From: Bryoerythrophyllum caledonicum
Lineage: Eukaryota; Streptophyta; Bryopsida; Pottiales; Pottiaceae
Reading direction: 5' to 3'
Assembly: GCA_963971425.1 (NCBI GenBank)
Contig: OZ020521.1
Location: 11,549,519 to 11,613,518, forward strand
DNA length: 64,000 nt
Shown here: positions 37,044-64,000 of the stretch, piece after piece
Numbering within the stretch: the first letter of the stretch is position 1
Layout: each line of letters opens with the position of its first letter
Notes under the pieces: generated by a model
Told to the model about the DNA's origin: nothing
Database searches by the model: none
What the model saw: only the letters and a program-made list of their open reading frames with translations
Position numbers and translations under genes: made by a program

Positions 37044-37532
37044 CTAGTCCTCATCGAGAATTGCACCTGAAGAGTGTTCTAGAGATGCTCGAGTGCTGCT
37101 CGGTGTGTTGACTTCATTAGCAACTTCTGTCTCTTCCACCGGGATTACATTGATTGGCTGAACATTGGGATCGGCGAAAACCATGGGCTCGGTTCCAACA
37201 TAGGCTGTCTCTTGCGGCGGAGAACGAGGAGAAGACGGATTCGGATCCGATGTTAGCAAAGACTATTGGACAGAAGTCTCTCCAAACAACAGGACTATCT
37301 CCATAACAGTAGGGCTTGGAGACGATGGTCCTACAGCCGCCCCATGAGCATCACCTAAAATATGCTCCATCAGCTTGGACTACGATGGCAACATATGTTT
37401 GAACCTTGCAAACATAGAGGCCATCATCGCTTGCGTGTTCCGCTCCATGTCGGCAAGGTACACCAAAGACACTGGCAATCAATTAAACTAACTCAAGGGA
37501 CATATAATTGCATACCATAAAACTACGCTACT

Positions 37533-37566
37533 TGCATATTCAGCTCGGCTCGAGCTGAATATGCAA
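37533..37566. repeat. E1 palindrome copy inside an inferred intron
   Basis: A near-perfect copy with core AGCTCGGCTCGAGCT and intact outer arms. It lies between the GTAAGAAT donor near 37594 and the next coding segment near 37470. Confidence 0.75.
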
Positions 37567-39006
37567 ACAAGAGAGCTCGGCCGAAATTCTTACCATTGAT
37601 GCAATAAGAAACTTTGAGCCTCCAAAGGCAAAGAAGACTAAGTCCCCGGGATTGCACCATTCTTTGAGTACTTGAAAGTAGAACTCCATCGTGAACTCGG
37701 TAGTATTCACGCGATACTCCAACTCGTTGTACTTGCGGACCTTGGTGTTTGCAACATGAAGCGGATAGACATACTCCTTTGGAACTAAGCCAGGGCGAGC
37801 CAACCGCTTACGGACTAGCCAAAGAAGTTCCACAGGATCTTTCGACAACTTGTTGCTTATCGGCAGATCTTCGAGCCACTCATACTTGCCAGGAATGTAT
37901 GCAGAACTATATGTCTCGTGTTCGTCCGCAAACGAGAACTTCTCGGTTAGGGAGAAGACTTGCCTCTCCTCTGTCTTGGTTCCACAAATCCATAGCCAGG
38001 CATCTGGATCTGTTAGTCCAAGGTTGCCTTCAGTTTGCAATGCCTCCATGAAGTCCTTGAAAAATGGGTTAGCCACCGTTGATGATGGCTTCAAATCTTG
38101 CCCGGAAGCTGATCCGAAATCGATCAAAGCAAGCCAAGGCTTTTCGCCGCGGGGATCCCATGTATTTTCGAGCCACACACCCAATGCATCATTGATGATG
38201 TTCTACTTCCGGATGTATGCAGACCCGGATGTTCCTTCGAAGTGTTTGCGCTTGTCCAGAAACAACTTAAACCAAACTTTCGTGTACGGCCATAGCTCCT
38301 CCACAGACTTGTTCTTGCTCCGAAGCTGTCGCGTTTCAGTGAAGAATGCCTCACCGGGTTGATTGACAAGCACCCTCATGGTTGCGGATGAGACGTGATA
38401 TTCACGCTTAAAATGCTTCCAGTTTACAGGAACAAAATTTTTGTTTGCATCAAAAAATGCAAGACTAGGCTTCAGTTTCAGCAACTCCCTACGAACGACA
38501 TTCTTCCTCTTGTGCCGCTCGATTTATTCCCCAGCCGTGTAGTTACTATCTAATACGCTGGTTGGTGTCTTGATGACCATCTTTGGGTACTGCAGTCGCC
38601 GTTTTGATCCACTGCAGTTCAAAATGTGGTTCAACAACTTCACATGATCTGCATTAGTGAGGTTACCGAGCCACTTGAAGAACTCTCAATTCAGACCACA
38701 ATCCTTTGTTGGAGTCCACTTTGAGTTCTCTTTGAATTTGCGAAGGGTGTTGGTGTCAACGTCAATCAAGTCCCCTTGAGCACTTGCGGCCATCACATCT
38801 TGCTAGAGATTGAAAGTAGAATCAGGCGACGTGATAATCTTGACCCCATTCGTGAGAACCAACTAAGGAACCTGACTAGATTTGCTAGCCAACTGTTGGT
38901 TCTTCGCAACATCAATGCAGGCAAACCGACGTTGAATGGCCTCAATGAACTCCTGCAGGACGCCCAACGATTGTGTTAGTAAAAGTGAACAATTGTTGAC
39001 ATGGGT

Positions 39007-39042
39007 GTGCGTATTCAGCTCAATTCGAGTTGAATATGCAAT
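39007..39042. repeat. E1 palindrome copy inside an inferred short intron
   Basis: A copy with core AGCTCAATTCGAGTT, in a ~95-bp interval bounded on the minus strand by GTAAGC and CTGCAG, good plant splice sites. The palindrome fills about a third of this intron. Confidence 0.7.
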
Positions 39043-39380
39043 CGCAATCAGAATTGCTTACCTTTTACGCCTTGTCGTTGGCTCTTGGAGCTCCATGACC
39101 ACCCGGTGTATTCTTCTTCTGTGGTGGTGTTGGGCGACCTAGATTGGTCGATGTCGACTGTGCGGACAGGATGTTGGTCGACCACGTTGGCTTGAAGACG
39201 AACAAGTGATTGACTCGGTTGTAGAATGCCGAGATCTTACGCAGCTTCTCTTTGTCATCGGACCATGCGACAAAGCACTTCCACACGCAAAAGTGCCTTA
39301 CTATGTCTTCGAAGTGTTTACGCTTGTCCAGGAACAACTTTTACTATGCGTACTTAACGCGTCACAGTATTTCCTAAAGC

Positions 39381-40230
39381 GTGCATATTTAGCTCGAGTC
39401 GAGCTGAATATGCAACAAAATGATTAATTGTACAGGTGTGGTTCCGTCAAGAAGTTTCAAGTAACTCTTGTATTACAACCTACGTGTATTTGAAGTATTT
39501 TTTTTTATATTTACAGTCGGATTTCCTTACAAATTTCAGATTTTAACCATTTCTAGTGCACATTTAGCACGACTCGAGCTAAATGTGTACACAAAGTCTG
39601 TTTAATTATGCACATTCAGCTCGAGTCGAGCTGAATGTGCAGATTATTACTAATGTAACGCGCATGACTAATGATCCGAACGTGCATATTCAGCTCGAGT
39701 CAAGCTGAATGTGCACAGAAAGCTCATTAGACCGTGCATATTCAGCTCGAGTCAAGCTGAATGTGCACAGAAAGCTCATTAGACTGTGCACATTCAGCTT
39801 GAGTCGAGCTGAATGTGCACACATAGCTGAAATTAAGATGCACATTTAGCTCGACTTGAGCTGAATGTGCACAATATGATCAATCTGTCGCGCAGATACT
39901 AATGAGCCGGAAGTGCATATTCAGCTCGAGTCGAGCTGAATGCGCACACAAAGCTCATCAAACTATGCACATTCAACTCAAGTCGAGCTGAATATGCACA
40001 TTCTGATTATCCTAACGAGCTGACCTGATCAACCCACCATGTACATTTAGCTCGATTCGAGCTGAATATGCACATCATTCAAAACTAAATGTGCACATTC
40101 AGCTCGACTCGAGCTGAATATGTACCTCGTGATCAACGAATTGTGCATATTCAGCTCGACTTGAGCTAAATGTGCAGCACGCTCAGGACGTGGATTGCAT
40201 ATTCAGCTCCACTCGAGCTCAATATGCACT
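39381..40230. repeat. E1 palindrome array, 13 copies with quantised spacing
   Basis: Each copy is a ~34-bp palindrome: outer arm GTGCATATTCA or GTGCACATTCA, core AGCTCGAGTCGAGCT, mirrored arm. Copy starts are 39381, 39556, 39608, 39682, 39734, 39786, 39838, 39913, 39965, 40039, 40091, 40143 and 40195. After the first gap, every spacing is 52 or 74-75 bp. Linkers are not strongly alike, although AAAGCTCATTAGA recurs. On the inferred gene model this block is an intron of the methyltransferase-like gene. Confidence 0.95.
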
Positions 40231-41430: not shown

Positions 41431-42094
41431 GGTGAGGTTGCAAAAGAGACAATCACAGAAGATGAGGAGGGAGGTGAAACCCCACCTACAGAAAGTGAAA
41501 ACGTACAAATGATTACCTTTTCGTTAAACATCCATTCTATGGTTTTAGGTCTTGATTGGAAGGTCCTATGACCATGGGCCGCATTTCCTCTTGACCGTGG
41601 GCCACCTTCACAAAGTGTTTAGCATATTAAAAAATTGTGCAAGAAGTGGTAATCTCGAAATTGTCAATTCAATTAAAATTTTTGGGAAAATAAATTTGTT
41701 TTTGAACATTAATCAAAATGGACAAGAAGAAGGTTTACACCACATTATTGGAGTAGGAAAAATGAAATTAAAAACTATGAAGACATTTAAGTCTTTTGTA
41801 CCTTGACCGGGAATGTGTGACAATGTGTAAAAATGTTTAACTTGGGTTAATATATTTTTCATCACTAAAGTTAATAGATTTTTTTAATAATATAAAAGGA
41901 AATATGATTTATTGCTAGTAATCAATATTCTCACATTCAATATAGTGATTTAGATAATGTATTTGGAGTTGCCGATCGTGTCCACTTTCTCCATCATACT
42001 ACTAAAATCATAATCCGTGTCGTGAACCACGCAGCCATTAATCGCGTTGTCAACCTTGGAGTAAACTATAGGAATGGTGCAGGAATGCTATCTT
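41431..42094. other. Spacer between E1 and E2 with a MITE fragment
   Basis: No gene is seen. Most of it is the family-1 fragment at 41615-41990, listed separately. Confidence 0.5.
41615..41990. mobile_element. piggyBac-like element, family 1, fragment (copy C)
   Basis: It matches the middle of copy B (30625-31569) in the same orientation: TGTGCAAGAAGTGG, GAAGAAGGTTTACA, GTGTGACAATGTGT and AATGTTTAACTTGGGTTAAT all align. Both ends are missing and no TTAA flanks are seen. Confidence 0.65.
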
Positions 42095-42124
42095 GTGAGC
42101 GGTGAGCGGCGAGCGGCGAGCACT
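42095..42124 (+). repeat. E2 left terminal inverted repeat
   Basis: Four tandem 7-bp units, GTGAGCG, GTGAGCG, GCGAGCG and GCGAGCA, facing inward. The matching inverted set is at 57412-57441. Confidence 0.75.
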
Positions 42125-43280
42125 GAATTCATGACAATTTTTACCTTTGTTATTGATGTGAAATTAAAAAGAACACCTATTGCCGTGAGTGTAGGTGGAT
42201 TGTGCTTCAAAAAAAAAACAAAAAAACAAAAACATAAGAGAAATTCTTGACTTGCAATCGCTTTAATTTATAGTTTATTGAATAGAGGCACCTATAGCCG
42301 TGACACTATTATTAGAAATATTACAACTAAAAGTAATTTGATAAAAGATAATGTAACATATATTACAATGCAAACTTGTACTCCAAATAATAACGATTTT
42401 ATATTTCATTAATGGGGGAGAAGTTCATCTATAATCCCCTTATTTTCTTATACAATAGAATTAAAAATGTAGAGATAAAGTACATCTATTCAACTATCTA
42501 AATTGTTTTACTGCAAATATCATAAGTCCATGGATAAATATCGCTTGAATAACTCTGCAAATTGCAGTAGAAGAATTCTCTCGGATGTGTATTACTATTC
42601 TAATTGAGTCAAATATGGCGGACTATTCTAAAAAATATCAAAGGTGCATGAAGCAAAATGTATGAAGTGAACTACTTATATGGATATAAAGGACAAATGA
42701 AAAAAAAAAACACAACAGAACAAAAACAAAAAATTAGTTGTGCTACAACTACACCTACCCTGTATCTAAACTACACCAAGCGGAATGGGACGGGTCTCTC
42801 AAGGTCCTTGTATACCCGGCACTAGCACCCGAAGGCTGCCACGGCAGTATCAATTGCGACTTGAGAAGACCAGGCCATCTGGGCTTGTCACTGGAGGCAT
42901 TGGTGGTACTCAGCCATTATATAGTACACCTCCCCGGCCTCACCGATCGATATGGGATTGTGGGATTATGGAAATTTCTGAAAGAAAGTTCAGGGTGCCG
43001 AATGGAGAGAATGAAAGTGATGGACCATCTAAAAATATTCGAAACTTTGTAAACTATTCCTAGTGTGATAGAGGTAAAGTTCTAATTTCAAAAACACGTC
43101 ATAACAATTGATTAAATTCCATCAGTGAAGTATCATTTTTTATCTATTAGATTATCTAACTAGAGTACTAACATATATATGGATGAAACCTATAATCAAA
43201 TAAGAGATGCAAGGGTAATATATATCCATAAATCCAAAGCCTCATATCAGGTCAATACGGCATACAAAATAGAATAATCA
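42125..43280. other. E2 left subterminal non-coding region
   Basis: AT-rich, with two A-runs and no convincing frame. A 104-codon plus-strand frame at 42738-43052 has no recognised domain and overlaps a second frame, so it is not called. Confidence 0.45.
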
Positions 43281-46200
43281 CTACTCTTCATTACTAAATT
43301 CATCGTCACTGCCCTGATGTATAAACAGCATACTGCTATCAAAACCACTATCGGAATCAGTACTAGCCTCCTCAGCCTCGTCATCCACAAAATCCTTCGC
43401 ACCTAAGCCGGATCGATCGGTCGGTGGACGGCGTGGAGGCGACGGCTGCGCTACGGATGCAATGGCAGCAGCTTCAGCATATTCAGGCAAAATATGCGGC
43501 TGCTCTGGACTCACAACCTTCCATGCCAAGCGAGCCAGCACTCCAGCGGGAGGTGTTGACAGAGAAGCCATCAACGACGTCGAGAACCGTCTGCAACAAT
43601 TTCTCATTAGCAAAATACCAATGATAGAATAAGATTACCAAAAAAAACAATTAAATGAAGAGAACTTACTTACAAGTTTTCTTAGGCGCAGTCTTAATCT
43701 CTGGTTCATCATCACCAAGCTCCAAAGGGCGCTTGAGAGAAGTCTGCTCCATGGGCTCAACAATCGCAGAATCAACCTCCAACGTCTGTGGAATCATGGG
43801 TCGAAGCACCTCGTCTACCAAGTCCTTGTCTGCCTCCAAGGCAAGAATATGACGCTTGAGGGCTTTGCAAGCCTTGATACTTGTACCTAGAAAAAGTGTG
43901 GATTGCAAACACAAATAATTTAGAATCATGATTGGTTAAAAAAAATAAAATGAGTAAATGAAATGCAAATACCAGTAGAAGCGGTGAGGTCCATGACGAT
44001 CTCATCCTCCCTCGTGCAAAGATCAATAAGAGCCTCCAACAAATTCTGCGACTTCTCTCTCGCTCCTCGCCATGGCATCCCGGTGGAGGCTCTCAACGTC
44101 AGTGACTCCTGGGTGATGAAATTGGTCAGATGACCGTCTGAAGAGAGCTCAATCCCATCTGCCAAAAGCTCCACTCTGTCATTGAAGACAAATGGAGTTG
44201 GAGGATCCGCCTTTCGAACGAAGCACTTGACCATGAAAGTCTTGTGTACGTGACCGGGGCGAGCATCAGAGAAGAGGGGAAGTCCATTGATGCCGAACCA
44301 CTTCGCCTCTTCGTCAAATCCCGACCACTGAGTCCAGGAAACCAGTTCATTCGAAATGAACCTGGAATCTGTATAGAACACGATGATAGCTCCTCCATCA
44401 CAAAGAAATGACTCTGCCAACTCGAAATTAAACCGAATCCACAATGATTCCTTCCGACCCTTGGGAGTTGGCACTATAGGTAGTGTGTTCCATGGTGGAA
44501 TCACAGTACCACCCTGAATGTCTGGAACTGGCAAGTCCTCCGGGACGTCAAATATGAACATATCCGCCAAACCCTCCTCAGTCAACTCCCCCTTCATGTA
44601 CCGCGTCTTGGATCCGCCATGGGCTATCAACCACTGTGCGATATCCCTCCAAACTGGCGGAACGTCATCCTCAGCAGTAACTGAATCATAATCAGTAAAA
44701 ATAGAATAGGCGCTGGTATTCATTACCTCAACAGCTACAGTGGACTCTGTCTGCTCCACTACAGGAATCGAGTAGATGGTCTGTGCTGGTTTTGCAATAA
44801 ATGCTCCTGGTCGGCTGTTGGCGGATGGAGAAGCGCCAATAGTGGTCAATACGGATGCCGGCTGTGAGAACAAGCCAAGACCCACGGCAGACAACAGTTT
44901 CTCGGGTCCCTCCTTTGCCACCAGTGCTGCCAACTCCTTGTTCCTTACTCGAGTCTCTTTCCTCTCCTTCCTTGCAGTCTTCTTCTCCAACCGTGCCGCT
45001 TCTCGCTCTGCATCTCTAGCCGCAATCTTGGCAGCCTTCTGAATTGCCCTCTCCTTGGCCTTCTCAGATAGCTCAAGCTCAGGCTCAACCAGGAATGACG
45101 CTGAAGCATGCAAAGCAGGACCAGCTCCAGATTGTGTAGCTAAGGCATCACACGACTCCCGGAGCTCCACCTCGTCACCTAGAGTTGGATCTAATCCACG
45201 AAGCTCTAAGTACCAAGGACACTGAGCCAAGTGGTGTCGAGTGAAACGACGCAACTGAGACTCTGTGAAGATACACTCAGCGCTGACAGTGGTATCACAC
45301 CACTTCCTCAGACGGATTGGCAACTCCCGAGGCTGCAATGCTCCGTTGGCAACGAGCTCTCGCCAAAAGTAACGGAGCACCACTCTCTTGATACTTTGAG
45401 GTGTCTCTGGCTGCTTGAGAAACTCATCAGACTTCACGAACGGCTTTGTCGTACTAAAATGGTTCTTGAAAGCCTTCTTCCAGAACGAGAGAGAGTTGGC
45501 CTCAACCCACGAGCCAATGTCCAGTACTGGATTCGGGAGACCCTCCATCCGAATGGTGATATTGTCTTCCTTCACGACCTTGGAAAACAACTTCTCTGCC
45601 TCCTCCTCAAGTTATACAGTAAATAACACAATGTTACAAAACATCACTAACAACAAAGTATAAAACAGTAGATAATATAATGCTTTAACATTGAACTTAT
45701 CCCTGCCCAAAATGAAGCGACGTCGAGCCAGGGTTTAAGATTAATCTCCGAGCATGGCGCTTTTGGAAAATTGTACTCATCCTTGCCCTCTTTCGACAAA
45801 TTCCACCAACGCATCCATCTGCCTTTGAACCTCGCAGAAACCTTGGAAGTGCAAAGGAGTTGCAACTTCTCTGATGTGATTTCTGGCTTGTTCTGATAAA
45901 CATCATAATGATGTAGAACCTGAATTTGAGGCAACAAGGAAACGGTCAATTTAAACTTGTAAATCAAACAATTTATTTTGAATAAACAAATTCAATAAAT
46001 TACACAAAAGTACCTCTTTGAAAAATTCTTCACCATTACGAGGGTCAGCAATGGCAAGGAATCGCGTGAGTAAGGTGCCACATTGTGTCTTCTTCTTTTG
46101 CATCGCTTCGGAGCATAGAGTGACCAACTCCGCCGAGCTCCCAACACGATCAGCCCCAACACTAGTCACAAGTGTGTCACGATAAGTTCGAATACAGTCT

Positions 46201-47355
46201 TCTTGAGCAGCAATGAGCTCCCGCTTCACAAAAAAATCAAACGAAAAAGTACAAGTTAATTTCAATAAGACATATAAGAACTTATCATACATAAATACAG
46301 GCACACAATATTGCATATAGTTCATATACCCAGACACTATAAATACATTAAACATACCTCATAGAGTAACTTCAAGAATGAATCGATGGTCATATGGTAC
46401 CACTTTTTAGTCCCCTTCCTAGCTCACTCCGCAACACTAGCTTCGTGATCCTCTTCACTAATCAGCCCCTTGAGTTGATCAAAGTCCAACAACCGGAAAT
46501 GTTGAACTCTTTTCACATCATGAGACAATTGTTGTGTCACATGGTCGGAGTCTTTGTGCCTGAGCATAGATGTACAATAGCTTCAATTGAAATAGAAAAT
46601 ATCCATGAAAATACATGCTGAAGGAATGAAAAGAAGTGAAAAAATTAAATAAATAAATGGACTCACTTGTTCCAGTGTGTCATGGCGTTAAGTAGAATAT
46701 GGCGGTTTCCCATGGTGGGCTCTAATAAAACTGCCCGCACATGAATGTGAAAGGCACAATCATTTCGATGCATGGAGGATATGACATCCATCCATGCAAG
46801 GTGCCGGTGATTTCCATCCTACACAAAGAAATAGCGATCAGAGAGGCATTGTAACTCTGGCCTACTCTCAATCATAGCTTCGAACTTTTTGTCCTCTGCC
46901 CTCCAAAGGTCTGACCACCCCTCACGCTCTTGTGGCAAAACTTTCCGTTCGACCATGGAAAAGTCCTTCAACGCAACATAGAAACAAGCAGACCCCGGGC
47001 GGTAGCCTTTGACAAACTCGCTCTTGAGCTTCTCAATGTCTGGCTTGACTCGAATACGCACTTTCGTCATTGGCAACATTCGGCAGAGTGGGATGTGCAA
47101 CTCCCCTACAGACGGAAAATGTGACTTCTGGAGCACATCGTAGGAAGTCCCACGGATTGACTTCCTCAATGAAAGCTCTGTAGTATCCAAACCGGGATCT
47201 ACACCAATCGCCGGTACCACTTGAGGAACCACTTGAAGGACTAAATTCGAAGCCTGAAGAGGAAAGCCCAACCCTTCAACAGCCGTCACTGCGTCCACAT
47301 GGGGACTCTCCAAGCCCATAGATGGTGTGTCCTTCTCTCCTTGCGGTGAAGCCAT
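43281..47355 (-). pseudogene. E2 accessory protein: ParB-like domain plus permuted DNA-methyltransferase-like domain
   Basis: Inferred exons: 47355-46667, 46559-46358, 46223-46014, 45919 to about 45695, about 45609-43973, 43886-43670 and 43590-43281; most junctions are GT-AG and keep frame, for about 1160 codons. Exon 1 contains LHIPLCRML, DIEKLKSEFVKGY and DGNHRHLAW, resembling the ParB/sulfiredoxin fold. Exon 5 has a long charged helix (EKAKERAIQKAAKIAARDAE), then a C-terminal block with DEIVMDLTASTG that continues across the splice as TSIKACKALKRH and LEADKDLV. This is the order of motif I and what follows in permuted N6/N4 amino-methyltransferases. The catalytic DPPY is absent; FDVPEDLP may be its remnant. 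The tail is acidic. Single in-frame stops occur in exons 1 (46819-46821) and 2. ParB-methyltransferase fusions are known from phages and bacterial mobile elements. DNA binding is inferred; activity is doubtful. Confidence 0.6.
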
Positions 47356-47934
47356 CTAAGCACAAGCATTGTCAATTTTCATGAGTATCTACTATGAAGT
47401 ACAAGTTCAATTCACGAGTGATTAGTATTCAACATGAATAATTGGTACAAATACTAGAATTTAATTCTCTTAGTTAAGTCTCTTAGAAAACAACATTCGT
47501 CCAGACATACACCAGAAATAATGAGGTCCAGAGCAACTCATAACAAAACAAGCCACTGATTCTAGACGAGGTCCATGTCACCAGCATAAAAACAACAACA
47601 TTGAACTGTGGATTAGCTAGAATTTCAGAGTCACCAAATAAAACTATGATAACATGACTCCAGTATGAGTTAGTAAAAACACATGAATCGAGGGGAGCTC
47701 TGCAGCGAATCGCAAAGTACAGACTCACCCTTTGAACTCACAATCAAAGCAATCCGGTCCGAATTTATGAGTCCATAACAAGTCAAGCATGAATAAAACA
47801 AAGAGTAACAGAAAGGCCAGAATAACAAGAATTATACAACACTTCGAATGAATCCAGAATAGTTCCATAAAGATCATAATTATAGCAATAAAGCAGTTCA
47901 ATGTCGCGAAAAAAAATACAATACTCAGTCTTCA

Positions 47935-50420
47935 ATGTGTCCCTTGGATCCAAGGGACTCACAGATACGTCTTGAAAATTTTCTAACTCGCGGATAATCT
48001 GGAATCCAGCATGATAGAATACAAGAGTCACCCAAATTAAACAAACTTAAACTCAATCCTACATGTGTCCCTCGGATCCGAGGGACCTTCGGCACTCTGA
48101 TGATTTACTTATATTTCGAGCCCCACCATGAATCCGAAGACACTGCACAATATTACTAAGTACATAATTCGGCATACTATCTCACGACATAGTATTCATA
48201 CACTCACAGCTCCTTGCTATTAACGAATTAAGCTAATATGTCCAGGGTCACAATAATCAAACTATGAATATGATTACATAGTCTATTGTAGAATGAACAT
48301 ATATTCAGCTATGATATGTGAATAGCTTAAACATGTTTAGAGTCAGAAAAAATTATGTACCTCGCATGAATCCTGCTTCACATGAATCCAGTGAAACTTT
48401 CAACTCATGGCACATCAAATTCGAGCATGCATGATGAGCGCAGCTACATAAAAAAAATCACATTACTAAGGCTAACATGTATCCCTCGGATCCGAGGGAC
48501 TCTTTGGTCTGTCTTGTTTGGTGTATCAAATCTTAACAAAGCTTAATTGCTGATTAAGTTCACAAGCAAAAAAAGAACATAAACATGAAATTGTCTGGAC
48601 TTCAGCATGCATATATAATTGAATCACTCAAATCCAGAGTCACGAAATCTCAACATGCATATGAATTCGAGCCACCAGTTCATAACTGACCAATAAATAA
48701 GCCCAAATAAGTCTATCGTCACAAATGGGATAGAGTACATTAGAATATAAACGTCACTAGAAACCAGCGAGCGTCCATTTAGAAGTAGGAATTTTGAAGG
48801 CATTATAGTTACAGTCTCATGAATAAGAACACTAAATTGACCCCAGAATTCATTCCTCGGATCCGAGGAACCTAAAAATATTTCCCGAGGAAAATTTGAC
48901 TCGAGCAAGTTCGGGAATACTGTATTCAATCAGTTCTAAGGCATCACAAAGAAAAACACAGAACTCAGCCAACCAGGTGTCCCTCGGATCCGAGGGACTC
49001 CCCGTCCATTCTCGAATTTTTTTTAATCTCGCGTTTACGTCAGAATTTTGCATGCTCGAAGATTTGAGTCCCCTTGTATACTACCAAAAAGTCAGCTCCC
49101 AATTAAAATTGCGACTCTATTCTCAACTACTTACTGATCTCGCACCAGCCTCAATTCAACAAAAATATTGTGAAGAAACACCAAATCCTTTCAATATGCA
49201 CAATAGTATACTAAGGAATCACGATTCCAGCACGCGTGTGGAGTCAAGGACTGAAGAGCCTCATTAAGACCAAAGTCATCAAACAATTTCATGGATATAA
49301 GTTCAGAGTCACTAAAATTTATCAAAAAACAAACACAAACTACATTTCCCAATATGTCCCTCGGATCCGAGGGACTCTCAGAACTATCTCCATTTATTTC
49401 TTATATTTGCCTTAGCAGGAACTGATCATGATATATGTCTTGAGGCACTCAAAATACAAACACAAAACTCAGCACTCACAATGTCCCTCGGATCCGAGGG
49501 ACTCATATTTCTATCTCGATTAGTTTCTTACTTGCTCGTAAGCTGAAACAGTTCATGATATGAGTTAAGAGCCACTAATCATACAAACAAAATACTCAGC
49601 ACTCTATGTGTCCCTCGGATCCGAGGGACTCTCTACTCTATCTCAATAATTTTCTAACTGGCGCCTATGCTGGAATTGTTCATGTTAGTTAACAAGAGCC
49701 ACTACAAATGCAAACACAAAACTCAGCACTCTATGTGTCCCTCGGATCCGAGGGTCTCTCATCTCTATCTCACTTACTTTCATACTTGCACCTAAGCTTG
49801 AAAAGTTCATGTCATTAGTTTAAGGACACTAAATTTACGAACACAAAACTTAGCACTCTTTGTGTCCCTCGGATCCGAAGGACTCTCATCTCTATCTCAC
49901 TTAGTTCCTCTCTTGCACCAAAGCTAGAATAGTTCATGTAATAAGTTGAGAGCTCCTTAAAGTACAAACACAAAACTCAGTCATCTATGTGTCCCTTGGA
50001 TCCGAGGGACTCTTATTTCTATCTTGATTCTATTTATTCTTGGACCAAAGCAGAAAAGTTTATGTTATATAATAGGAGCCACTCGAAATACAAACACAAA
50101 ACTCAGAACAATATGTGTCCCTCGGATCCGAGGGACTCTCATTTCTATCTTGATTATATTCATTCTTGGACTAAAGCAGGAAAAGTTTATGTAATATTAC
50201 AAGAGCCACTTGAAATACAAACACAAAACTCAAAACGATATGTGTCCCTCGGATCCGAGGGACTCTCAACTCAATTTCGATTCATTTTTTACTTGAGCAA
50301 AAGATGGAATGTTTTTTCACTTGCGCAAAAGCTCGAACAGTTTCTGTAATGTGAAGCGAGCCTCTAAATAAACAATCACGGAAGTCAGACCTCCATGTGT
50401 ACCTCGGTTCTGAGGAACCT
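47935..50420. repeat. E2 palindromic array, 14 copies, 127-bp register
   Basis: The repeat centre is the perfect 20-bp palindrome GTCCCTCGGATCCGAGGGAC. GGATCC (or a variant) starts at 47946, 48074, 48488, 48859, 48986, 49363, 49490, 49617, 49744, 49871, 49998, 50124, 50251 and 50406. From 49363 to 50251 the spacing is 126-127 bp at every step, and earlier gaps are near one or three units. Outside the palindrome the unit is less conserved (ACAAACACAAAACTCAGCAC before it, ACTCTCATTTCTATCT after it). It lies in the 5' region of the ParB/methyltransferase-like gene. Confidence 0.95.
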
Positions 50421-51069
50421 TCGGCAGTACCTCCATCTTTCACAGAATCTTGCCTCACAATAAAACCAACATGAAAGAAAATTCGATGTACTCTTATAAT
50501 CTTCTATAACTATGTCCTGATTCAATCAGGTGCCACACTGTTGATTAACGAACTGTTCCTTGCTTTGATTGAGTTAATTAGTTACTCGATGTCTAGAGTT
50601 TACATATTCTTATCATGCAAATGAATACATCATCCAAGTCGTGTATGAACTTAAATTCAGCATCTAAAAATTCACATGATTACATCATTTTAAACAGGAT
50701 CGATATCATATTCAGCATCCATTAGTAGAGAGTCAAATATAGTATTGAGTCCGAATTTATCTATACTAAACATATAAGGCTCATAAATGAACATGTATTC
50801 AGCATCTTCTCAAACACAGAAATCCATCATCAAGAAAATATGGAACATGAATTCAGCATGAAGAAAGAGAGAGTCACTTAATGGACTGTGATACTTAGGA
50901 ATATTATGTTCACACTAATCCCGGGTGGATCCAGAATGACTGCGTGAAACTGCTGATAATTAGTTCACATTTAATGATACACAAGATGGACTCAATCATT
51001 TGCCCTAAAACTCTTGGAAGCTTTAGACATCGAGTAGAAAATTTGTCATCAACTACGTCTTCACTGAAC

Positions 51070-52624
51070 ACGAGTTTTGGGTTGAATGAACTTACCACGA
51101 GTGCTGTGCGGTTCTTGACGAGCTCTCTATCTTCGGCACAGCTTCCCGTGAACGCTTCTGCGACCTGGTCCTTTGCGCCGCTAACGTGATTCCGAAATAT
51201 GCAAAGAGGACAGGATTTCATACAAATTTAAACTCATTGCTTCACCATCTCCGAAATAGAATCTAGGTAAACCTATTTGAAGCTATTGGTATAATTGGAC
51301 TAGGGTTTAGTGCTTACGAATTGCCGTAATGGGTGTTGGGGTACAAGCTCAGAACTAGGGTTTTGACAAATTGACTTTGTACATTACAGGTGATGAACTT
51401 CAGAACTTCACTTGAGAAAGAAGTAACGATACGCCCTATAGTCGCAAACATACCTGCCTGAATCTCGTCACCAGCTCTTCATCGTCCAAGGTTTGTCCAC
51501 TTCCTTCCCCATGCGCGCTACCTGCTACCTGAAAGGATGGGCACGACATTATCATGATGAGGAAGAAACCTTGGAACTGCTCATCCAACCAAAAGATGGA
51601 GGACTACTCGAATCAGATATGCCACGGCCGACACAGATGCTCAGCATATACATCCTCACCAAGACAGTACTTCGGCAAGCACACAAAACGTAAAGATAAA
51701 TTGGATAATTCCGACCTAAATGATGAGACTGTCGGTTAAGTTTGCCTTCGAAACAGGAAGGGCTCGTGCACGAGCAAGAAGACCAGAAAGTGATCTCACT
51801 AGGCTTCGAGAGATGAGCTTCACTTGTGTGAAAAGAGGATCCTGATGACCTAGAGCTTTTGCATATTGAATTCGACAATCTAAAGGAACAATAAATATTA
51901 GGATATATATACATTTATGTCTTGAACCATATCGCACAATACAATTGTTGCATTAGTGATATAATAAAACCATGGTTACGTGAGATAATATTTAAGCAAT
52001 CTGATGATATCTTACCTGTGTCGTTTGGGCCCTTTCCTCCCCTAACAGAATCGACCCACTTTCCCCCGCGCTACCTCGATCGGTCCTTGTTCGAATAGTG
52101 GTGGCCCTAATCGAGGATCTATTCCTTTGCCTCGTGGATCGAGATGAATTTACTCGGCTCCTTGGCTCCATACTCGAGTCCATGCTTTGACATTCATTGT
52201 CGTCAACAGCACCGTTTGCACCCTTACCCCCATGCATCGAACTTACGGACGCAATAGGTCCCGTGAAATCACTCGTCATGATAACTTGAATTGACCCTTC
52301 TTCCCTCCTCTCTCTACGCTGCTGCATGAAGTAGCTTGGCGACTACACATTACGAGTGTAAATATGACAATCACAAAATTGCAATACAGAAAACTAATAG
52401 GAATATAAATATGAGACACTTACTCCGACAGGACAGTGCTTCGCCTCTTCAGCTTGCAGAATACTTGACAACTTTCTAAATCGCACGGGCCCCTCTGTTG
52501 ACACTTCCTTACGACTGTCCTCAGAAATCAAGGCGTTGTGTTGTTGTCGCTGCGCCCGTGACCTCCTCTGCTTAGGATTTGAGTAGTGCGTTGATCTTCT
52601 CTTCCCGCCACCCTTGCTTGTCAT
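51070..52624 (-). CDS. Small basic protein of E2, unknown function
   Basis: Two exons are well supported: 52624-52424 (starts MTSKGGGKRRSTHYSNPKQR, donor GTAAGT) and 52321-52016 (Ser/Arg-rich, for example RSTRQRNRSSIRATTIRTR, donor GTAAGA), joined in frame. A third likely exon is 51528-51454 (GSGQTLDDEELVTRFRQ between AG and GTATGT), and a fourth lies about 51180-51110 (KDQVAEAFTG). The links after exon 2 are uncertain, since an exon near 51849-51720 does not fit the phase cleanly. The basic, Ser-rich N-terminus suggests a nuclear or DNA-binding protein. It starts about 600 bp from the transposase and is read in the opposite direction, so the two may share a promoter. No family is recognised. 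Confidence 0.45.
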
Positions 52625-53224
52625 CCTCTAGAAGTCGACCTGGCTGAAGATTGGCCATTTTCACACGAGTATGGCTGCTATGAAGAGGGTAATAAGTGGT
52701 TGAACCTCATCGAAACCTGCTGTTAGAAATTTCTAATCCAAGCAGTTGACAACGGGATGGCTCATGATCTCTATCTATTTTATCAGTTGTTGTCAGCCTT
52801 AGTTTGAATTTCAAAATCAAAGTTAGTTGAGGCAATTGTATCTCTATTATTTGCTTTTGCAGTCACAAGCATTGCACTTAACTGGGTTTATTAATTGTAT
52901 TTTTTGAATAACGACAACACCGGGTATAAATGATCTTTTTGCTACTTTGGTGGCATACTTGATACAACTAATACTTATCTATTTGTAAATTGCTGACACT
53001 GATCATGACATCTAGATTGGTTTCTACTTTGTCGTACTAAATTCAAATCTGTCAGATTGTGTGCAAGTCGTACTAGTAGTCTATGATTGCATTATTCTGC
53101 CGTAATGGAGAAATTCCGTGCTTTCTATTTCTGTAAGTACGCATAGTATTTAACACTCTTTCAATTAATTGTCCTTCATCTTTCAGAGTCGTTCTAACTT
53201 TGTTGTTGTTGAATCTGTGTGCTA
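52625..53224. promoter_or_regulatory. Divergent intergenic region of E2
   Basis: These 600 bp separate the starts of the small basic-protein gene (-) and the transposase (+) and must hold both promoters. No palindrome copies are present. TATA-like AT runs are frequent, and none stands out. Confidence 0.4.
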
Positions 53225-56200
53225 ATGGCGTCCCTCACATCTCACTACGGCGGTGTTCCGCTTGTCATGTCCCTAGGTGATGATGGCACTATAAATGTCT
53301 CTGAGGCAGTGCTATGTATTCGCTTTGGTCTTAGGATTGGAATAGTTCATGTCGAACAGGAGATATTTGATATTTCGGGTAGACTTCAGTATTCCGTATA
53401 CCATGTTAAATTCCGCGACGAGGATGGATTTGCGTGGAATCTAAGTCGTGGTTCATTCAAGGTGTATGGTGTATCAGATGCTCAAATGTCTACGCATGCC
53501 TCTTGTCCCGTCGCGACTTCCACGTCCCAATCAGGTGATACAGTACTCTTGCCCGGTCTAAGTAGACAATCTAAGCCAAGCATACAATTTCTTAGTGACA
53601 CTGATGATGACGATGACTCTAATGGAAACTTGGGAGAGTCATCGTTTCCCTCCAAGTCACAAGACACAGACCATCAGCCTGTGTCAATTCCAGTTGCAAG
53701 TAGACCCCAGATGTCCCCTGTTGTTTCCTCTGGGAAGCCTCCTGTCCATCCACTGTCCAAGGGTATCAAAAGTATCATTCCTTTCCTCCGCCAGACTGGT
53801 ACTAGGAAGGGGTCTCGCTCTGAGTTGTCACGCGCTGATTTTGATAGTTTTAAAATTTCACGTGTAAAATATCTACCTCCTCAATACAATGGAGATATGA
53901 TATTTGAACTACCACCTCTTCCAGAAGGTCTCCCATCTCAATTCGGTGGGGGTCTCGACGGAATGAGCAAACAGTACGATGGTCATATGTGGTGCAGGAC
54001 AATCACGACCAACATCATGAACGACTTCGGACTCACGTACCGAAAATCAACATGCACTGGACATCTTCAATGCCCCAACGTCAGTTGTGACTATAGATGC
54101 AGGAACGAGGGTCGCACGAATCAAACTGAGTGGACCGGACTTGCCATCTCCCCGTTCCCTGTGAATGGCGCACCATCGGGGAAATCTACTTTAACTTGTA
54201 AAGTATGCCAAACCCCTCCTATTTGTTTGGCGCTTTGTGATGCACGTATTTATTATGTGACCTCTCCCGACTCAGAGCGCACCCGAGTTGCCATTCATCT
54301 TGGACATCATCATCATCCGATTTCAATGGATGTTGACAAAACTGCGATGGACTTGATGCATGATTGCGTCGCAAAGGAAGTACAGCGCACAACGAAGGCT
54401 ACTAATTTTGCAATCATCATGGCTGCAAGTAAGAGTTACCTCTCCGATTACTTGATCCGTCACGGATCCGGATCATTAAACCTTGAAGGAGCATCTATGG
54501 ATGCTATCCTTGACCAGTTCGAGACACTATCGTCTCCAAACATCCGGAATCTAGTATCGTCATGCAAACGCTTCTACAGTGGAGGGAAGGGAGTTATGGA
54601 CAATATCATAGATTTGAAAGAGTCGTCCAAGTTTGTGTTCATCCACGAAAACAAGTTCCCCGGCCAATCCACAGGTAAGGTATTTGTTTTTAAAATGTCT
54701 GTCGATCGGCCTGGTAGTGGTGTTGACCTTGTCAGACGGATGCAACCTGGTGGAGACCTCCAAGACTGTTGGTTGATGTTTGATCATGTCAAACGGGTCA
54801 AAGACTGGACAACTATGGCATGTCACGTGTACGACAACAAATATTGTAGAGTCATGACAATAGCCATGTGTGATATGCAATCGGAGGATGCCGAAGCGCA
54901 ACAGCTTTTCTGGGAGAACCTGAATGATACAATGAAGAAGCACGAAGTAGAAGACATGAACTTCAAAGGGTTTATGGCTGACAGTGCAGGTGCAAATTGG
55001 CATGCTGTACGGAGGGTGTATGGCAATGGCGACAAAGACGTGCTTATGGAAAACAGAGAGCGGACTTGTTTATTTCATTGGACAAAGTGCCTTCATCGAG
55101 CCACCACCAAGAGTATTCTCCCTGCCTTTCAAGATCAACACATTGCACTATGCAAGATATGGAAGAATGCCAAATCTCAGGAAGAGGCTGAAGCTCAATA
55201 CAACGTGATTCGAGGGTGGTGGGTGTCGTCTGGCGCGACTACAGACAGCGGGCGTCGTGCCCTTGAAGACTGGATGGCGTTTTGGCACTTTCGTTATAGA
55301 CAATGGGGTGGCGATATGCAGCTTGTAAGTCTTTGTTTTTTGACTTTTGGATTATCATATTAATTAGCATATCTATGATTAATATCTTAAACTACATATT
55401 GGCATGCCTTTGTAGGACCTCACGCTTGACGAAAGAGCTGACATGCCATCCTGCAATCTTGCGGAGACTGTCCACAATCGTTGGCTCCAACAATCCGGGA
55501 ACACGATGACCTGTTTATACGCAGCTACAGTGGACGACCTCATCCGCGCTTTTATGCAAATCACTACTTATCGAGCTTGGTTAAAGGGAGGCACATCAGG
55601 TAAAGGACCAGACAAAGGTATGCTTCAATTGCGATCTGCACAACGTTCCGGTGATCCTAGACTCATAGCAGAAGCTGTCAAGAGTTTTCCAGGGGCGGAA
55701 GACTTATTGACAGGAACTGGCGGACTTGAAGGAGCTGAGATCTTTGGATCTACTAAGCGTAAGCTTGACATGCCACCTGGATCCAGTAACAACTCTCACC
55801 GGTCCGATACTGTAAACTACTCTATTCCACGGGATGGAAGAAGGGTGACTCGTGCGCGGATCGAAGAGGCGTTAAGTGGACAAGATTCCGGAGTTCGACA
55901 CATAACATTTGTGTTAGAATCAGAGTGCAATCCGTCAAAGTGGCACATTGCCCGCCTTCCGAAGAACTCTAAAAGGCAATGCCAAGCATTGCAAGGTGGG
56001 ACTGCTGAGAAGTGTAGTGCAAAAGTAGGGCGTGGGATCTATGGAACTCCAGCCCCAACGTATATTGGTAGGAGAAAGGAATTGAGATCACCACGAAGTA
56101 TCACTGTTGAATTTTGGTTTTGCACTGATGATCTTGGTCGGTGTGTGAAGGGATCAAAGAAATACAATGTGGTTGATTGGCCAGTGATTCCAATGACGTG

Positions 56201-56783
56201 GCCGGTGAAGCTGGGCACTAATTTGACAATGCAAGAGATTTTGTCGCTGGAGGAAGCAGGTTTTCAGTTGGAGCAACGTGGTACACTATCGCCCCGAAGA
56301 CAATTTCAAGTGTCTTTGAACATGCCTCTTCCGGGTTCTCACTTCCCTATTCCAGAGAATCATGATTCTTATCATACCTTCCGGAACGGTCTAAAGATTC
56401 GCAGGACCAATGAAGAGCCTTCCGTTCAGCAGAGAAACAAGTGGTCGAGCGCTGCTCTCATGAACCAGTGCTATGTTTCAAATGTCACTGCAATACCTTA
56501 TCCGGGATTTGGATGCGTTATCACTCTTGAAACGGAGAAGGAGAAGTCGTATTGCGTGACCATCACGGACTACCCCGCATGTACATGCCCTGATTTTTTG
56601 AAGATGTCAACAGAGGCGTTGGGAAAGAAGGGGCAATGGAAATATTGTAAGCATGTGTACTACATCTTACGGTACTTGTGTAAAATGGACTACAAAAAGG
56701 ACTTGTTTATGCATGCACCAAGCTACAACTTCAATGAAGTTATACGCATACTAGAGCTTGCTAATATTGCAGAACTCGCATGA
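53225..56783 (+). CDS. MULE-type transposase with WRKY/GCM1-like and SWIM zinc fingers
   Basis: Two exons, 53225-55324 and 55416-56783 (GTAAGT donor, TTTGTAG acceptor), give 1155 residues with no internal stop. After an Asp/Ser-rich linker, a zinc-finger region at about residues 275-370 has CTGHLQCPNVSC, NQTEWTG and HLGHHHHP, like the WRKY-GCM1 fingers of MULE transposases. The MULE catalytic core follows. The first acidic candidate is the Asp in WLMFDHVKR (about 515), then DMQSED, and the second is in FMADSAGANW (about 583). CLFHW (about 615) is a family-typical C/H motif. A SWIM finger ends the protein: CTCPDF at about 1090 and CKHVYY at about 1110. Architecture and length fit MULE-like transposases of plants. 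ATG 53225 is the first in frame after a non-ATG stretch. It should cut and join the E2 ends. Confidence 0.85.
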
Positions 56784-57411
56784 TGATGTGCGTCACGGCT
56801 AAACTTTTAGTAGTCTAGACAAGGTCTAGATAGCAGATGTGGTGATCTTTTTCCCACTACTTGACTATAGGTATTAGTTAATCAATTTTTTTTTTTTCCC
56901 TAACTTACAACGGAAGTGTTCTGTGAGAAACTTTCGTCAGTTCCCTAGATAGAGGCAGCATTTTACAACGTTGATTTGAATCCTAAACCTTTCTATTTGG
57001 AGAAGTTGGATAGCTCTCACCATCACCCGGTAGTTAAAAGTTTTCATAGAGTGTTGTTATTTCTATATAAACATATTATGTTACTGCTTCAAGAAAAAAA
57101 TTATCTTACTTCAGATCTATTACTCTAGCACTTCATGAAGAAGCTTTTGTTTTATGAATTGCCACCCTAAACCAAAGCACAAATGTCATTCTCGAAAAAA
57201 AATAAAAATAAAAGAATAAAATTCTTTGACATGCGTAAAACATGGAAAAAAACATTCAATCGTCAATGTATCCACGGCTGTAGGGTACTTTCTTAATTTA
57301 GAAATTTTATTGACATTTAATGTCAAACTTCATAGTTGTACTACTAATTTCCCGAAAAATCCCCATTTTTTCTAAAAAAACAGCATTTTTTTTTGTGTTC
57401 TCAATATTTTT
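56784..57411. other. E2 right subterminal non-coding region
   Basis: AT-rich, with T- and A-runs and no frame of note. The transposase terminator must lie here, but no signal stands out. Confidence 0.45.
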
Positions 57412-57441
57412 TCTGCTCACTGCTCACCGCTCACCGCTCAC
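57412..57441 (-). repeat. E2 right terminal inverted repeat
   Basis: Reverse-complemented it reads GTGAGCG, GTGAGCG, GTGAGCA, GTGAGCA, then GA, mirroring the left end with three changes. Confidence 0.75.
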
Positions 57442-58504
57442 CCATAACATTAAGTAGATGGAAGATATGGACCTCTTGCCAAAAGAATCAAAAGCCAATT
57501 GGCGAATGATTCTTCTTCTACAAAGAGTAGAGGCTCGTCCTGTAAAGAATTTGAGAGGAAAAGATGGGATGACAATGGTGAAAACCGAGAAAGAAATGAT
57601 AAAAACAACCTAGAAACCTTCTATTGCAAGTCACAACCTCCTTCAAAAGACAAAAGTAACTGACATGTGGCCAAAATACTCCATGAATTTGATAAAAAGT
57701 CAACATAGGCCATTAAAAGCGTCCTAAAAATGGGCTGACATGGTGAGCATGATGAAATCATGCACTACACTCCAAATGGCAACTATAATAAAATATTAGA
57801 ATTATTCCTCCAACTTGCAAAAGTAGTTGGCAAATGGATTACTATATCTTTTAAAAGCAAGCACCTAGTCAATGCATGATGAAATGGCATGTCAAAAGAA
57901 AAACTTTTGCATAAATATTTGATAACATACTAGGGAACATTATAAAGAACATACTGGGAACGAGTCGGGAACTCTGAAATAACATTCACTGCGGTAAATA
58001 AAATAATGTTTAGTGAATTTGTAAAAAATAAAATGTTGGGAACACGTAATAATAAACTACAGTGTGGGCCACCAACCAATAAAGTACATATGAAAAGGAA
58101 TAAAAACAAAATCAATTATATGCAAGTACTCAATTTATTGAAAGCATGTGATGTGCAAATGTTTGTTTTGGACTTAGTGGATTAGAATAGATGTATGCTA
58201 AACACAATAACAACATGATGCAATGGTGGAGATTGGCCAAGATGGTTTTGGGCCTTCAATTCCATGTTACCAATTGAAATATTCATAACTTTTAGAATAA
58301 ATATGGAGGATTTTAAGGTTGGACTCCCTTTCCCAGACGATGTGCTTCGGTGAGAAGTATAGTGCTTTGGTTTGCATAGTGTTCATATTTTTGACTTTCT
58401 AATGATTGTCTTACTTACACTATTCTATGGTTGAAACTTGATTTTAAACCATCTATAATTTTCAGTAGCTAACTATATTCTTTACACATGTGTAGGTATA
58501 TACA
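57442..58504. other. AT-rich spacer between E2 and E3 genes
   Basis: No gene and no clear terminal repeat for the next element. Frames of about 60 codons on the minus strand are chance. The sequence just before 58505 (TGTGTAG then GTATATACAATGG) could be a splice acceptor, so the next gene may have a 5' non-coding exon here. Confidence 0.4.
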
Positions 58505-61500
58505 ATGGAAAACATGAGAGATCATTTGCATTCACCACCTTCGCCGAGTACTCGTACAAGTCAAGCGTGTAATTCAATTCCAACTTTACCTCCATTTACC
58601 GGTACACTAACTTTTACACCGGTGGGTGGAGTTCGACGCCGTGCACCTCGGCTGGGAGTTCCTAGACCTTCATCAACGGGTTTTCTTGTATCATCATCTA
58701 TTCCGGTTCATGGAGGCGGAAATCATGTCTCGTTATCATCATCAGAGACTATTGGTGTTTCAAGGGTCCAAAGGTCACCATCGATTGTTATTCCATCTTC
58801 ATCTTGCAATGAGGTACCTATTTATCCTTTATCACAAATTGGAGAACCATCATTGATTCAAAATGACCATGCACACAATGGTAATGTAGCATCTTCTAGT
58901 AGATGTGTTAATGATTTATCATTAATGCATGGGCCAATCTTGGATGAAGTTGATGAAGATTCTAAGGCCAACACAATGGAAGGTGTTGGTGATTTCTTTG
59001 ATGTTTACAATAGAGGGGGTTTGAGGGAAGGTGAAAATTTAGCACCTAAAGCAAGGGCAAGAAAACATATGAATGATTTAGCTCATGGGGGACACCTAAC
59101 TCGTCGAAAGCGAGAATGGTGGTTAGGCATTTGTTACTCCGCATCAGCTGTGACGGGGATCCCATTAGACCAAATTGGAGATGAAGATGTAATGGAAGCA
59201 ATTCAATATCAGGGTTCAAGTGACATATTAAAACAACGTTTGGGCTTAGATCGAGCTATGCAAAATTGGACCGTTCGAACATCTATTGAAGATATTGCTG
59301 AGAAGAAGGTTCTTGAAAGGATTCAAAGTTACTTCAATTCGGATATTTTTGCTTTGCTTATGGTAGACTCTGGTCTAACTCATAAAGCATTGCGAGCCAT
59401 TAAGGCTATTGACGAACTTGGAGTTTTCAAGAATGTTACAAGTTCAAATATCATCAAACGAATGAAGGTAAGCATTTATTCTCTATGTGATTTGAATTCA
59501 AAGTTTTAGTAATTATTTGATGTATTTAATGGATTTTTTATAAGTTTTAGGAAATCTACATTATTTCTTGTATTTTATTGATTTGGTAAATATGTGAATT
59601 ATAGAAATTTGTAGAAGAGGCTACACGTGATGGTCTTGGTTGGCAAAGAACGGATGGTGTATCTTTTGGAGTACAAGTTGATAGCGTTGAAGCTTGGTGT
59701 ATTTTTATGATATTATTATACGAGAGGAGATCAGGAACGATTTTGCAAGATGTGGTGTATTTTAAACTAGGAATTGATGCAAGATGTCATTGGAATCGTG
59801 GTGGTCAGGTATGTGAAATATGCCTAGAACTTTTGCATGATCGTGGTCTACTATCTTGCATATCAATAGCTAAGTACGAAGGAAATGATTCACAGAGTGA
59901 GATACTAGTTCATATTGGAAATCGAGATGCATTTCCATTAGGTGGCCATATCCTTGACCAGCTAAAAGACCTCATTGTCAAAAGGCATTACTATTGAGAA
60001 CCGATACTTGCAATTTAAACTTTATGAGTGCCATAATTTAGCCTGCTCATATAGTCTTGTCACTAGAGGTGAAGCATCCGCAATAGGTAAAAAATTTTGT
60101 CCATGGTGTATGGCTACAAAACCTACTTCGGCAAATGTCACTTCGCAAGAAACATTAGCAATTGAGGATACTATATCCTCAGTTGCAAAGAAATATTTTA
60201 TAAGAGAATCTCTCATACAAGAGCTGAATCCATCTATTCCTTTAGATGTAGGTTTGGATACACCCTTATTACCTCTATTGTTATTAGATGGAGATAATTG
60301 TGTACCAACGATCTTGGTACTTAAAGAGTGGCCAATGAATAGGCCAAACATCCATAAGATTACTCCTCCGTCGATGAGTGATTTAGTGTATTGTACTAGA
60401 CATGCATCTATCCGGTCTATATTGAAAATGTTCAAATACCTTGAACGTTTTGCTCAAGAGCTTGATTTGATAGACAAAAGAAGACCTTCAAGGTTTGAAA
60501 CATTGCGTGCAACCATGCAAAATCCTCCATTGAAGATTCAGGTTACAGTGAAGTCAACAACGGGAGTTGAGTATAAATCTTTGACTTATGGACAATCAGA
60601 TGGTATTATCTCAGACCGTATACTCTTGAATATGGATTTATTATTGGATGTCGTTAAAGAAGGTACCGATCCTGAACGGTTCATGAATATGTATAAGATG
60701 TGGGATGCATATCGGCGATTTGATACTCTTCAAAGGGCCTATGATCCAGTTCGCACTGCCCAAAACTTACCATTGGAGGATAGCATTTCTTATGTAGCAC
60801 GTGAATTTGGATGGTATGCATCCAAATGTTTTCATGAATTCACACCATACTTTCATGTGCAAGTAGCACACGCTGGAGAAATGTCTCGTTCATTGCCTCC
60901 TTGTATCACCCTAGGGCGATTAAAGAATGAGGTTATGAAAGAAAGCATCGGGAAGCAAAGAATATGCACACGGCACAAGAGGCTGGACGAGGTGGACCGC
61001 CGGCGGCGGTTCGTGGAACCGCCGAATGGGATCGAATGGATTTGGAAAAGGAAATCCTTACTCAATATGTACGGTTGAGAATGTCTTACGATGACATGAT
61101 TCCGGTGAGAACTCAAGATTTATTACAAGTCTTATTGGTGATTTTCAATATTGTATGTTGTTAATGTTTTTTTTTAATAAATTTCATAGGACAAATATTA
61201 TTTCTGATTCATTGTTTTTGTCGTTAACATATATAGAAATATAGGCAAAAAACATGGATACAAGAGCCAGTTCGAAGTGAATTAAACCAGGAATTCCTAA
61301 GAAGGGGTTTGATCTTCATAAGTATTGAAGAGGCTGAAGATTTGGCAACACCATATGATGGTCAAGTGGCTCCTCATCAAATCAAGCAAATTTTTAGAAA
61401 TTGGTATGATAAGTACCAAAGAATTCAAAATGTCGTGACTATGCCTCACCTTGAGGTAAGAATTTACAACATTTATTTATAGGTTATGATATTTTGTACT

Positions 61501-61865
61501 ATACCGTTTACCACTTTACTAATTTTATGCATACTAATTGCATATTATTTGATCAGGTTCATCAACCATTAGTGCGCACAAGATTGATAACTCAGTCCGC
61601 TATTGCCGCTGAGGCGTCACGCCATTCTTTTAGACGCCAAACCAAGAGACCTAGTTTGTGTCCAATACCGGAAGGATCTATTTTAGAACCCTCAAGTATC
61701 TCAAGCATTCCTACTGTAGAAAATGTAGAAACTTTAGAGGAGATACCTTTGCAAGGACATATTGCTACTCGTGGACGTGGAAGAGGTCCAAATCGGGGCC
61801 GTGGACGAAATTCTTCTAGTAGTCCCCGACCTCGACGAGGGTTCACAGCACCGGTATTAGAATAG
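58505..61865 (+). pseudogene. E3 gene 1: large protein of unknown family, transposase candidate
   Basis: Inferred exons: 58505-59467, 59605 to about 61140 (coding with two frame changes), 61237-61455 and 61557-61865; GT-AG junctions keep frame. The N-terminal 150 residues are Ser/Pro-rich. Then come a conserved-looking block (ARARKHMNDLAHGGHLTRRK), YFKLGIDARCHWNRGGQVC, SIAKYEGNDSQSE and, in the next frame, KKFCPWCMATK with a CxxC pair. Asp residues in GIDARC and GNDS could belong to an RNase H-like nuclease, but I do not recognise the family. The C-terminus is RGRGRGPNRGRGR, an RG-rich tail that often binds nucleic acid. The frame changes near 59984 (an A-run) and 60960 suggest a recently broken copy. 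A convergent gene follows. Transposase is inferred from context only. Confidence 0.4.
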
Positions 61866-62056
61866 ATTATCTATTATCTTATGTTTGTTTTTTATTTGTA
61901 ATCTTGTTATGGTTGATTAATTTACATGGCATTTATTATTTGAAAGTCAACACAAGGTAAAAAAATAAACCTTCAATGCCCAAATAAACAATCAGCTCAG
62001 CAATACGCTTGATTATAGATCAAAAATTGTAAAACAATACATAATACTAGTCCAAA

Positions 62057-63906: not shown

Positions 63907-64000
63907 GTCTATTTAATAACTCCATAATCCTCTCGCCTTGAGTGCCTTGGATCCCGCTAAGGCTAAAGACATTTGTATCATCCCTTGTCTTATTTTGGAC

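Follow-up and report, generated by a model that had tools for sequence, protein, structure and literature searches.

A decayed MULE-type transposon with a methyltransferase-like gene and an array of palindromes that may have served its self-recognition

How might a transposon recognize copies of its own kind, and could the parts used for such recognition have come from bacteria? These questions are raised by a stretch of 64,000 nucleotides from Bryoerythrophyllum caledonicum (contig OZ020521.1, positions 11,549,519 to 11,613,518; G+C 40%), hereafter the window, whose own coordinates are used throughout. At 42095-57441 it contains a 15-kb element of plant transposon type with a terminal inverted repeat sitting exactly on both limits. 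The element carries a transposase gene of the type found in Mutator-like elements (MULEs) and an accessory gene, here called gene A, which encodes a domain related to bacterial amino-methyltransferases and whose probable long intron carries an array of copies of a single palindrome. In our view this array, which is absent from the preliminary description of the locus, is the strongest functional clue available. The best explanation, which we would stop a little short of calling probable, is drawn by analogy: the element may have possessed a self-recognition system like that of VANC, the accessory protein of VANDAL transposons, assembled from prokaryotic parts.

The features of gene A on which this proposal depends are the following.

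43281-47355, minus strand: accessory gene A, a predicted splice model with 7 exons and 1,159 codons
46667-47355, minus strand: exon 1, with a DGNHR motif and a stop just ahead of the motif; ParB-like by eye only
43795-44654, minus strand: beta-class N6/N4 amino-methyltransferase-like domain, residues 758-1015, in exons 5 and 6, from Pfam, NCBIfam and hhalign
47356-51095, minus strand: probable long intron, or else 5' region, of gene A, carrying the palindrome array (from splice models)
47939-50418, no strand assigned: 14 copies of the palindrome GTCCCTCGGATCCGAGGGAC, collected by likeness
51096-51170, minus strand: upstream exon of gene A, probably coding, 75 bp, phase 0, its frame open into gene A
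51454-51528, minus strand: upstream exon of gene A, probably coding, 75 bp, phase 0, without an identified start codon

The homology of the C-terminal domain to amino-methyltransferases, which the preliminary description had proposed, is upheld by profile comparisons. The 258-residue domain matches the Pfam family N6_N4_Mtase (PF01555) at 31.2 bits, above the cut-off of 26.7, which the whole gene A protein narrowly misses at 26.3 bits. The domain also matches the NCBIfam CcrM profile (E 1.2e-6; its 27.7 bits lie far under the equivalog cut-off of 830) and a PDB entry named DpnA (E 5e-4). Alignment with 13 phage and plasmid enzymes using hhalign gives E 1e-9 and a score of 68.7 over 210 columns, where the best of 60 shuffles reaches 23.4; this score leans upward because the enzymes are records that had matched the gene A domain, while the Pfam and NCBIfam results are independent. 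One poorly aligning member of this enzyme set (L005, 1694) was retained, and 10 sequences were taken from 60 plus 8 listed matches. Searches for close relatives produced 22 pattern matches to the domain in prokaryote genomes, none of which was confirmed, and no match to exon 5 in phages; in viral contigs the methyltransferase exon had 9 pattern matches and the two transposase exons 0 and 1, again with none confirmed.

In the splice model the exons of gene A lie at 46667-47355, 46358-46559, 46014-46223, 45701-45919, 43973-45605, 43670-43886 and 43281-43590. Its frame is interrupted by two stops, and the splice donor of exon 4 is non-canonical, so that the copy in the window is broken; an intact gene A was ruled out on these grounds. 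If the two in-frame 75-bp upstream exons belong to the gene, then 47356-51095 would be a 3.7-kb intron. AlphaFold predictions made without an alignment returned confidence values (pLDDT) of 33.5 and 30.0, which are too low to inform on the fold.

The palindrome GTCCCTCGGATCCGAGGGAC is 20 bp long and centred on GATC, and 8 of its 14 copies fall in a regular 127-bp tandem block at 49355-50295 that was found independently of the palindrome search. The identity of array units to the reference unit is as low as 60%. Conservation is 0.95 within the palindrome, compared with 0.67 outside it and 0.83 in the best other 20-bp window, the inside value being raised by the gathering of copies by likeness (at most 5 mismatches in 18 for this array, and 10 in 33 for the second array described below). 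The unit consensus holds a perfect 20-bp palindrome, a length reached in 0 of 5,000 shuffles (largest 18; 0.08% at 18 or more). Perfect 18-bp palindromes are found in 10 of the 14 copies, and the central GATC is kept in 13. There were 0 matches to the palindrome in viral contigs.

An array of this kind could be an ordinary intronic minisatellite, or a source of hairpins, with no relation to the accessory protein. Tandem arrays are common in introns, and the 127-bp periodicity suggests expansion by unequal crossing-over. What such an origin does not lead one to expect is a palindrome conserved far above the rest of its units, or the state of the copies beyond the regular block on its low-coordinate side (47940-48980), where three of the five (48068, 48482 and 48980) match exactly over 18 bp and the other two (47940 and 48853) are altered yet still perfect palindromes. 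The minisatellite reading is also opposed by a second array, of a different palindrome, placed similarly with respect to another gene, and we consider it rather unlikely.

This second array occupies 30356-40228 and consists of 21 copies of the 33-bp palindrome TGCATATTCAGCTCGASTCGAGCTGAATATGCA, spaced in places at 52, 74-75 or 97-98 bp, with conservation of 0.90 inside as against 0.48 in the flanks (copies gathered by likeness). The copies surround a gene in decay on the minus strand (about 36.9-39.3 kb), and 0 of the 21 start within its four open reading frame blocks that were tested. The last block of this gene aligns with the motif X/I end of the methyltransferase profile with an hhalign score of 27.2, which was reached by 0 of 100 shuffles, and the interval may represent another element that used this strategy. 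Near outlying copies of TGCATATTCAGCTCGASTCGAGCTGAATATGCA, at 32886-33527, lies an open reading frame resembling NIF/FCP1-type phosphatases (Pfam E 1.5e-4, right at the cut-off), possibly a captured host gene.

Whether the array, gene A and the transposase belong to a single element depends on the ends and on the genes lying between them.

42095-42122, plus strand: left terminal inverted repeat, of tandem GTGAGCG-type heptamers, with 25 of 28 positions matching the right end
57414-57441, minus strand: right terminal inverted repeat, which pairs with the left end
42176-42187, plus strand: subterminal motif CCTATTGCCGTG, a pattern match
42291-42302, plus strand: subterminal motif CCTATAGCCGTG, a pattern match
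57273-57284, minus strand: subterminal motif CCTACAGCCGTG, inverted, a pattern match
53225-56783, plus strand: transposase, exons 53225-55324 and 55416-56783, 1,155 residues, with a D-D-E-like triad and a SWIM pattern
51850-52624, minus strand: gene B, a basic protein of about 185 residues, exons 52424-52624, 52016-52342 and 51850-51879, with predicted splicing
52625-53224, no strand assigned: interval separating the divergent gene B and transposase, presumed from the gene layout to hold their promoters

The earlier claim that terminal inverted repeats of GTGAGCG type bracket the element is borne out by the 28-bp pair ending at 42095 and 57441, and its length agrees with MULE terminal inverted repeats, which in some clades tabulated in PMC6446971 can be as short as 14 bp and are typically longer. 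The sequence GTGAGCGG occurs four times in the window, twice at each end of the element and nowhere else. When inverted pairs of 28-mers with at least 25 matches and more than 2 kb apart were counted across the window, 37 diagonals were obtained, of which the two palindrome arrays account for 31 and two repeat pairs, one at 5.5/12.1 kb and one at 7.2-7.6/30.8-31.2 kb, for 5, so that the element ends are the only inverted pair left. Further indication that the ends are genuine comes from the placement of the subterminal pattern CCTAYWGCCGTG, which was derived from its own copies and scored at up to one mismatch: its 3 matches in the window, where 0.28 are expected and 3 were reached in 0 of 100 shuffles, each lie at most 210 bp from the element ends, with opposite orientation at the two ends.

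The alternative that 42-57 kb is a composite, in which similar short ends happen to flank a transposase gene together with an accessory gene or older element that has nothing to do with it, draws on the shortness of the inverted repeats and their makeup of heptamer repeats, on the wealth of repeats and relics in the adjoining 30-41 kb, and on the fact that no target-site duplication of 8-11 bp, at up to one mismatch, was found near the ends. Chance similarity of the ends is hard to reconcile with inverted repeats and subterminal motifs that are common to both ends and occur nowhere else in the 64 kb, and a methyltransferase gene that accompanies a transposase in antisense orientation is a layout already described for Ectocarpus (PMC12477816). 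The composite is judged quite improbable, the least likely of the readings considered here.

The transposase is open over both exons of its splice model, without a stop. By eye, its triad was placed at D520, D586 and E717 (spacings of 66 and 131), a CxxH motif at C615, 29 residues past the second D, and a SWIM-type CxCx19CxH pattern. A CxxH between the second D and the E is typical of MULE DDE transposases. Against Pfam no family scored above the cut-off and no MULE family appeared at E up to 10, the SWIM family itself giving E 4.9, below the cut-off. Of the uninterrupted MULE-type transposase in the preliminary description, the open frame and fitting motifs therefore stand and the family assignment lacks a Pfam match and a target-site duplication; because of these two gaps the element can fairly be called MULE-type on its motifs rather than a proven MULE. 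Gene A and gene B lie on the minus strand, divergent from the transposase on the plus strand. The basic-protein gene described earlier is recovered as gene B, whose product has an isoelectric point of 10.6 if the predicted splicing is right and had no match in Pfam.

The preliminary description also gave the accessory gene a ParB part, and this was not confirmed. Gene A has no ParB match in Pfam, PHROGs or NCBIfam and only chance-level matches in the PDB, and its hhalign score against 11 ParB-like proteins is 10.4, while 60 shuffles reach up to 16.1. The label, drawn from one DGNHR motif seen by eye, is tentative. Fusions of this kind are found in phages: a ParB query returned, among the 60 listed of 210 matching records, 11 in genes named methyltransferase or methylase, and of the 7 of these candidates examined, 6 have both DPPY and a methyltransferase profile match, and 1 (168 residues) does not. 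Gene A would resemble these fusions in having a ParB-like head followed by a methyltransferase domain; it differs in that the 6 confirmed proteins have 411-530 residues and DPPY in each case, where gene A has DVPE, and its similarity to their ParB heads is undetectable with hhalign. The prokaryotic origin suggested earlier for the accessory gene fits its methyltransferase domain.

The self-recognition proposal draws on VANC and its intronic tandem targets, which gene A, and perhaps a second methyltransferase-like gene, recall through palindrome arrays of their own that lie within introns or next to them. The element would be an old, now decayed MULE-type DNA transposon, its short inverted repeats and subterminal motifs having served as substrate for the transposase. 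Its divergent gene A would have encoded a bacterial-type amino-methyltransferase domain, perhaps with a ParB-like head, and the protein may, as a dimer, have bound the palindrome array that the long intron of gene A contains. Such binding would have allowed it to recognize copies of its own element and to shield them against silencing by the host, in the way VANC, which binds its motif and removes DNA methylation, shields VANDAL elements. The protein could have done so by marking the GATC at the palindrome centre or, given the altered catalytic motif, mostly by occupancy of the array. What the sequence itself establishes is the ends, the open reading frames, the homology of the methyltransferase domain and the conserved array; splicing, binding, dimerization, anti-silencing and catalysis are inferred.

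A number of results weigh against this proposal, in addition to the missing target-site duplication, the ParB comparison and the effect of copy collection on conservation. In the first array the changed palindrome pairs comprise 2 that are symmetric and 9 that are not. The central GANTC of the second array is present in only 11 of its 21 copies, and the profile match of the neighbouring gene is weak (hhalign probability 11.5%; HMMER 3.3 bits), with nothing above chance in Pfam or in BLASTP against the gene A domain. Motif IV of gene A reads DVPE in place of DPPY or (D/N/S)PP(Y/F/W), the last residue being F, Y or W in 13 of 13 aligned enzymes, and motif I is degenerate (DLTASTGTS), so that catalysis is doubtful, at least in the copy here. 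An IPPW in gene A was rejected as the catalytic motif, because the alignment puts DVPE in that place.

The altered motifs bear directly on a less favoured alternative, namely that gene A encodes, or once encoded, a working methyltransferase for adenine or N4-cytosine which marked the GATC of its own array as an epigenetic self-label. The centres of the two palindromes, GATC and, next door, GANTC, correspond to the Dam-type and CcrM-type bacterial sites respectively, and the best-named relatives of gene A are CcrM and entries named DpnA; self-modification has also been suggested for algal relatives in the relevant text of PMC12477816. The correspondence of sites was noticed post hoc, with a chance of 1 in 16 for each palindrome centre, and is incomplete next door; together with DVPE and the degenerate motif I this makes active self-marking doubtful.

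A more general form of the self-recognition proposal, which is speculative and on present evidence unlikely, is that plant transposons built self-address systems from bacterial methyltransferase parts, in which every accessory protein has a palindrome peculiar to it. This palindrome would be arrayed in the introns of the protein's gene and centred on a bacterial adenine-methyltransferase site (GATC in this element and, in its ancestral state, GANTC in the relic next door), so that labelling or unlocking by a transposon is confined to copies of the same kind. If this were true, it would be a second invention of sequence-specific anti-silencing of the VANC kind.

The remainder of the window contains other mobile and genic sequences. 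Beside the element, at 58496-63912, long open reading frames clustered on both strands resemble another mobile element; none reaches a Pfam cut-off, the nearest being LysM with E 0.0015 and 18.9 bits where 20.9 are required. A dispersed repeat at 7069-7632, 30788-31365 and 41614-41973 comprises a 580-bp inverted pair (80%) and a partial direct copy (70%). There are also a Tc1/mariner-type transposase fragment at 8569-9225 (Pfam DDE_3, E 5.1e-12) and a pectate lyase-like gene at 17049-18071 (Pfam E 2.4e-15), which among the genes of the window points most clearly to a plant host.

The combination of a transposase with a methyltransferase-like accessory gene, which had been put forward as new, has a precedent that led us to reject this claim. 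According to the sections of PMC12477816 concerned with it, the Ectocarpus element Sola1-1_Ec32 carries a 1,104-residue gene with ParB-like and N4C/N6A-methyltransferase parts antisense to its Sola1 transposase; green and red algal relatives are cited there, and the authors suggest that an element encoding such a protein is bound and modified by it, so that a function has so far only been suggested. As far as the descriptions can be compared, in both cases a large DNA transposon carries, on the strand opposite its transposase, an N6/N4 methyltransferase gene of prokaryotic type with roughly 1,100 codons. They differ in superfamily (Sola1 there, DDE with a SWIM pattern here), in the plant-like host here, and in the unconfirmed ParB part and altered catalytic motif of gene A; a palindrome array goes unmentioned in those sections on Ectocarpus. 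A literature search, mostly outside subscription journals, turned up no such palindrome arrays and no MULE-type or plant case. The kind of system is therefore known; what sets this case apart is the transposase superfamily, the plant-type host and the palindrome arrays, and the array is what looks new.

The bdelloid rotifer N4CMT, as described in the consulted text of PMC8885841, is likewise a bacterial PF01555 methyltransferase in a eukaryote that is tied to transposon control, but it is an active host gene fused to a chromodomain and helps to silence transposons, whereas gene A is transposon-borne and broken.

A functional parallel is offered by VANDAL elements and VANC in Arabidopsis. Like the MULE-type element here with its probable intron, these MULEs have an accessory gene with tandem arrays of a short motif in introns, the VANC targets being tandem repeats that occur also in introns of VANC21 and VANB21 (PMC5735166 and PMC10398659). 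The motif of VANC21, YAGTATTAY, does not have the form of a long palindrome, and the word methyltransferase is absent from the main text of PMC5735166. The parallel is one of working rather than of homology, with the palindromes as putative protein targets. With its 20-bp palindrome the array supplies a definite candidate target, amenable to assays of binding and of N6-methyladenine or N4-methylcytosine, and the presence of two different palindromes beside two genes makes a comparison of specificity possible. If the proposal is correct, bacterial modification enzymes would be linked to sequence-specific anti-silencing in plants, in convergence with VANC.

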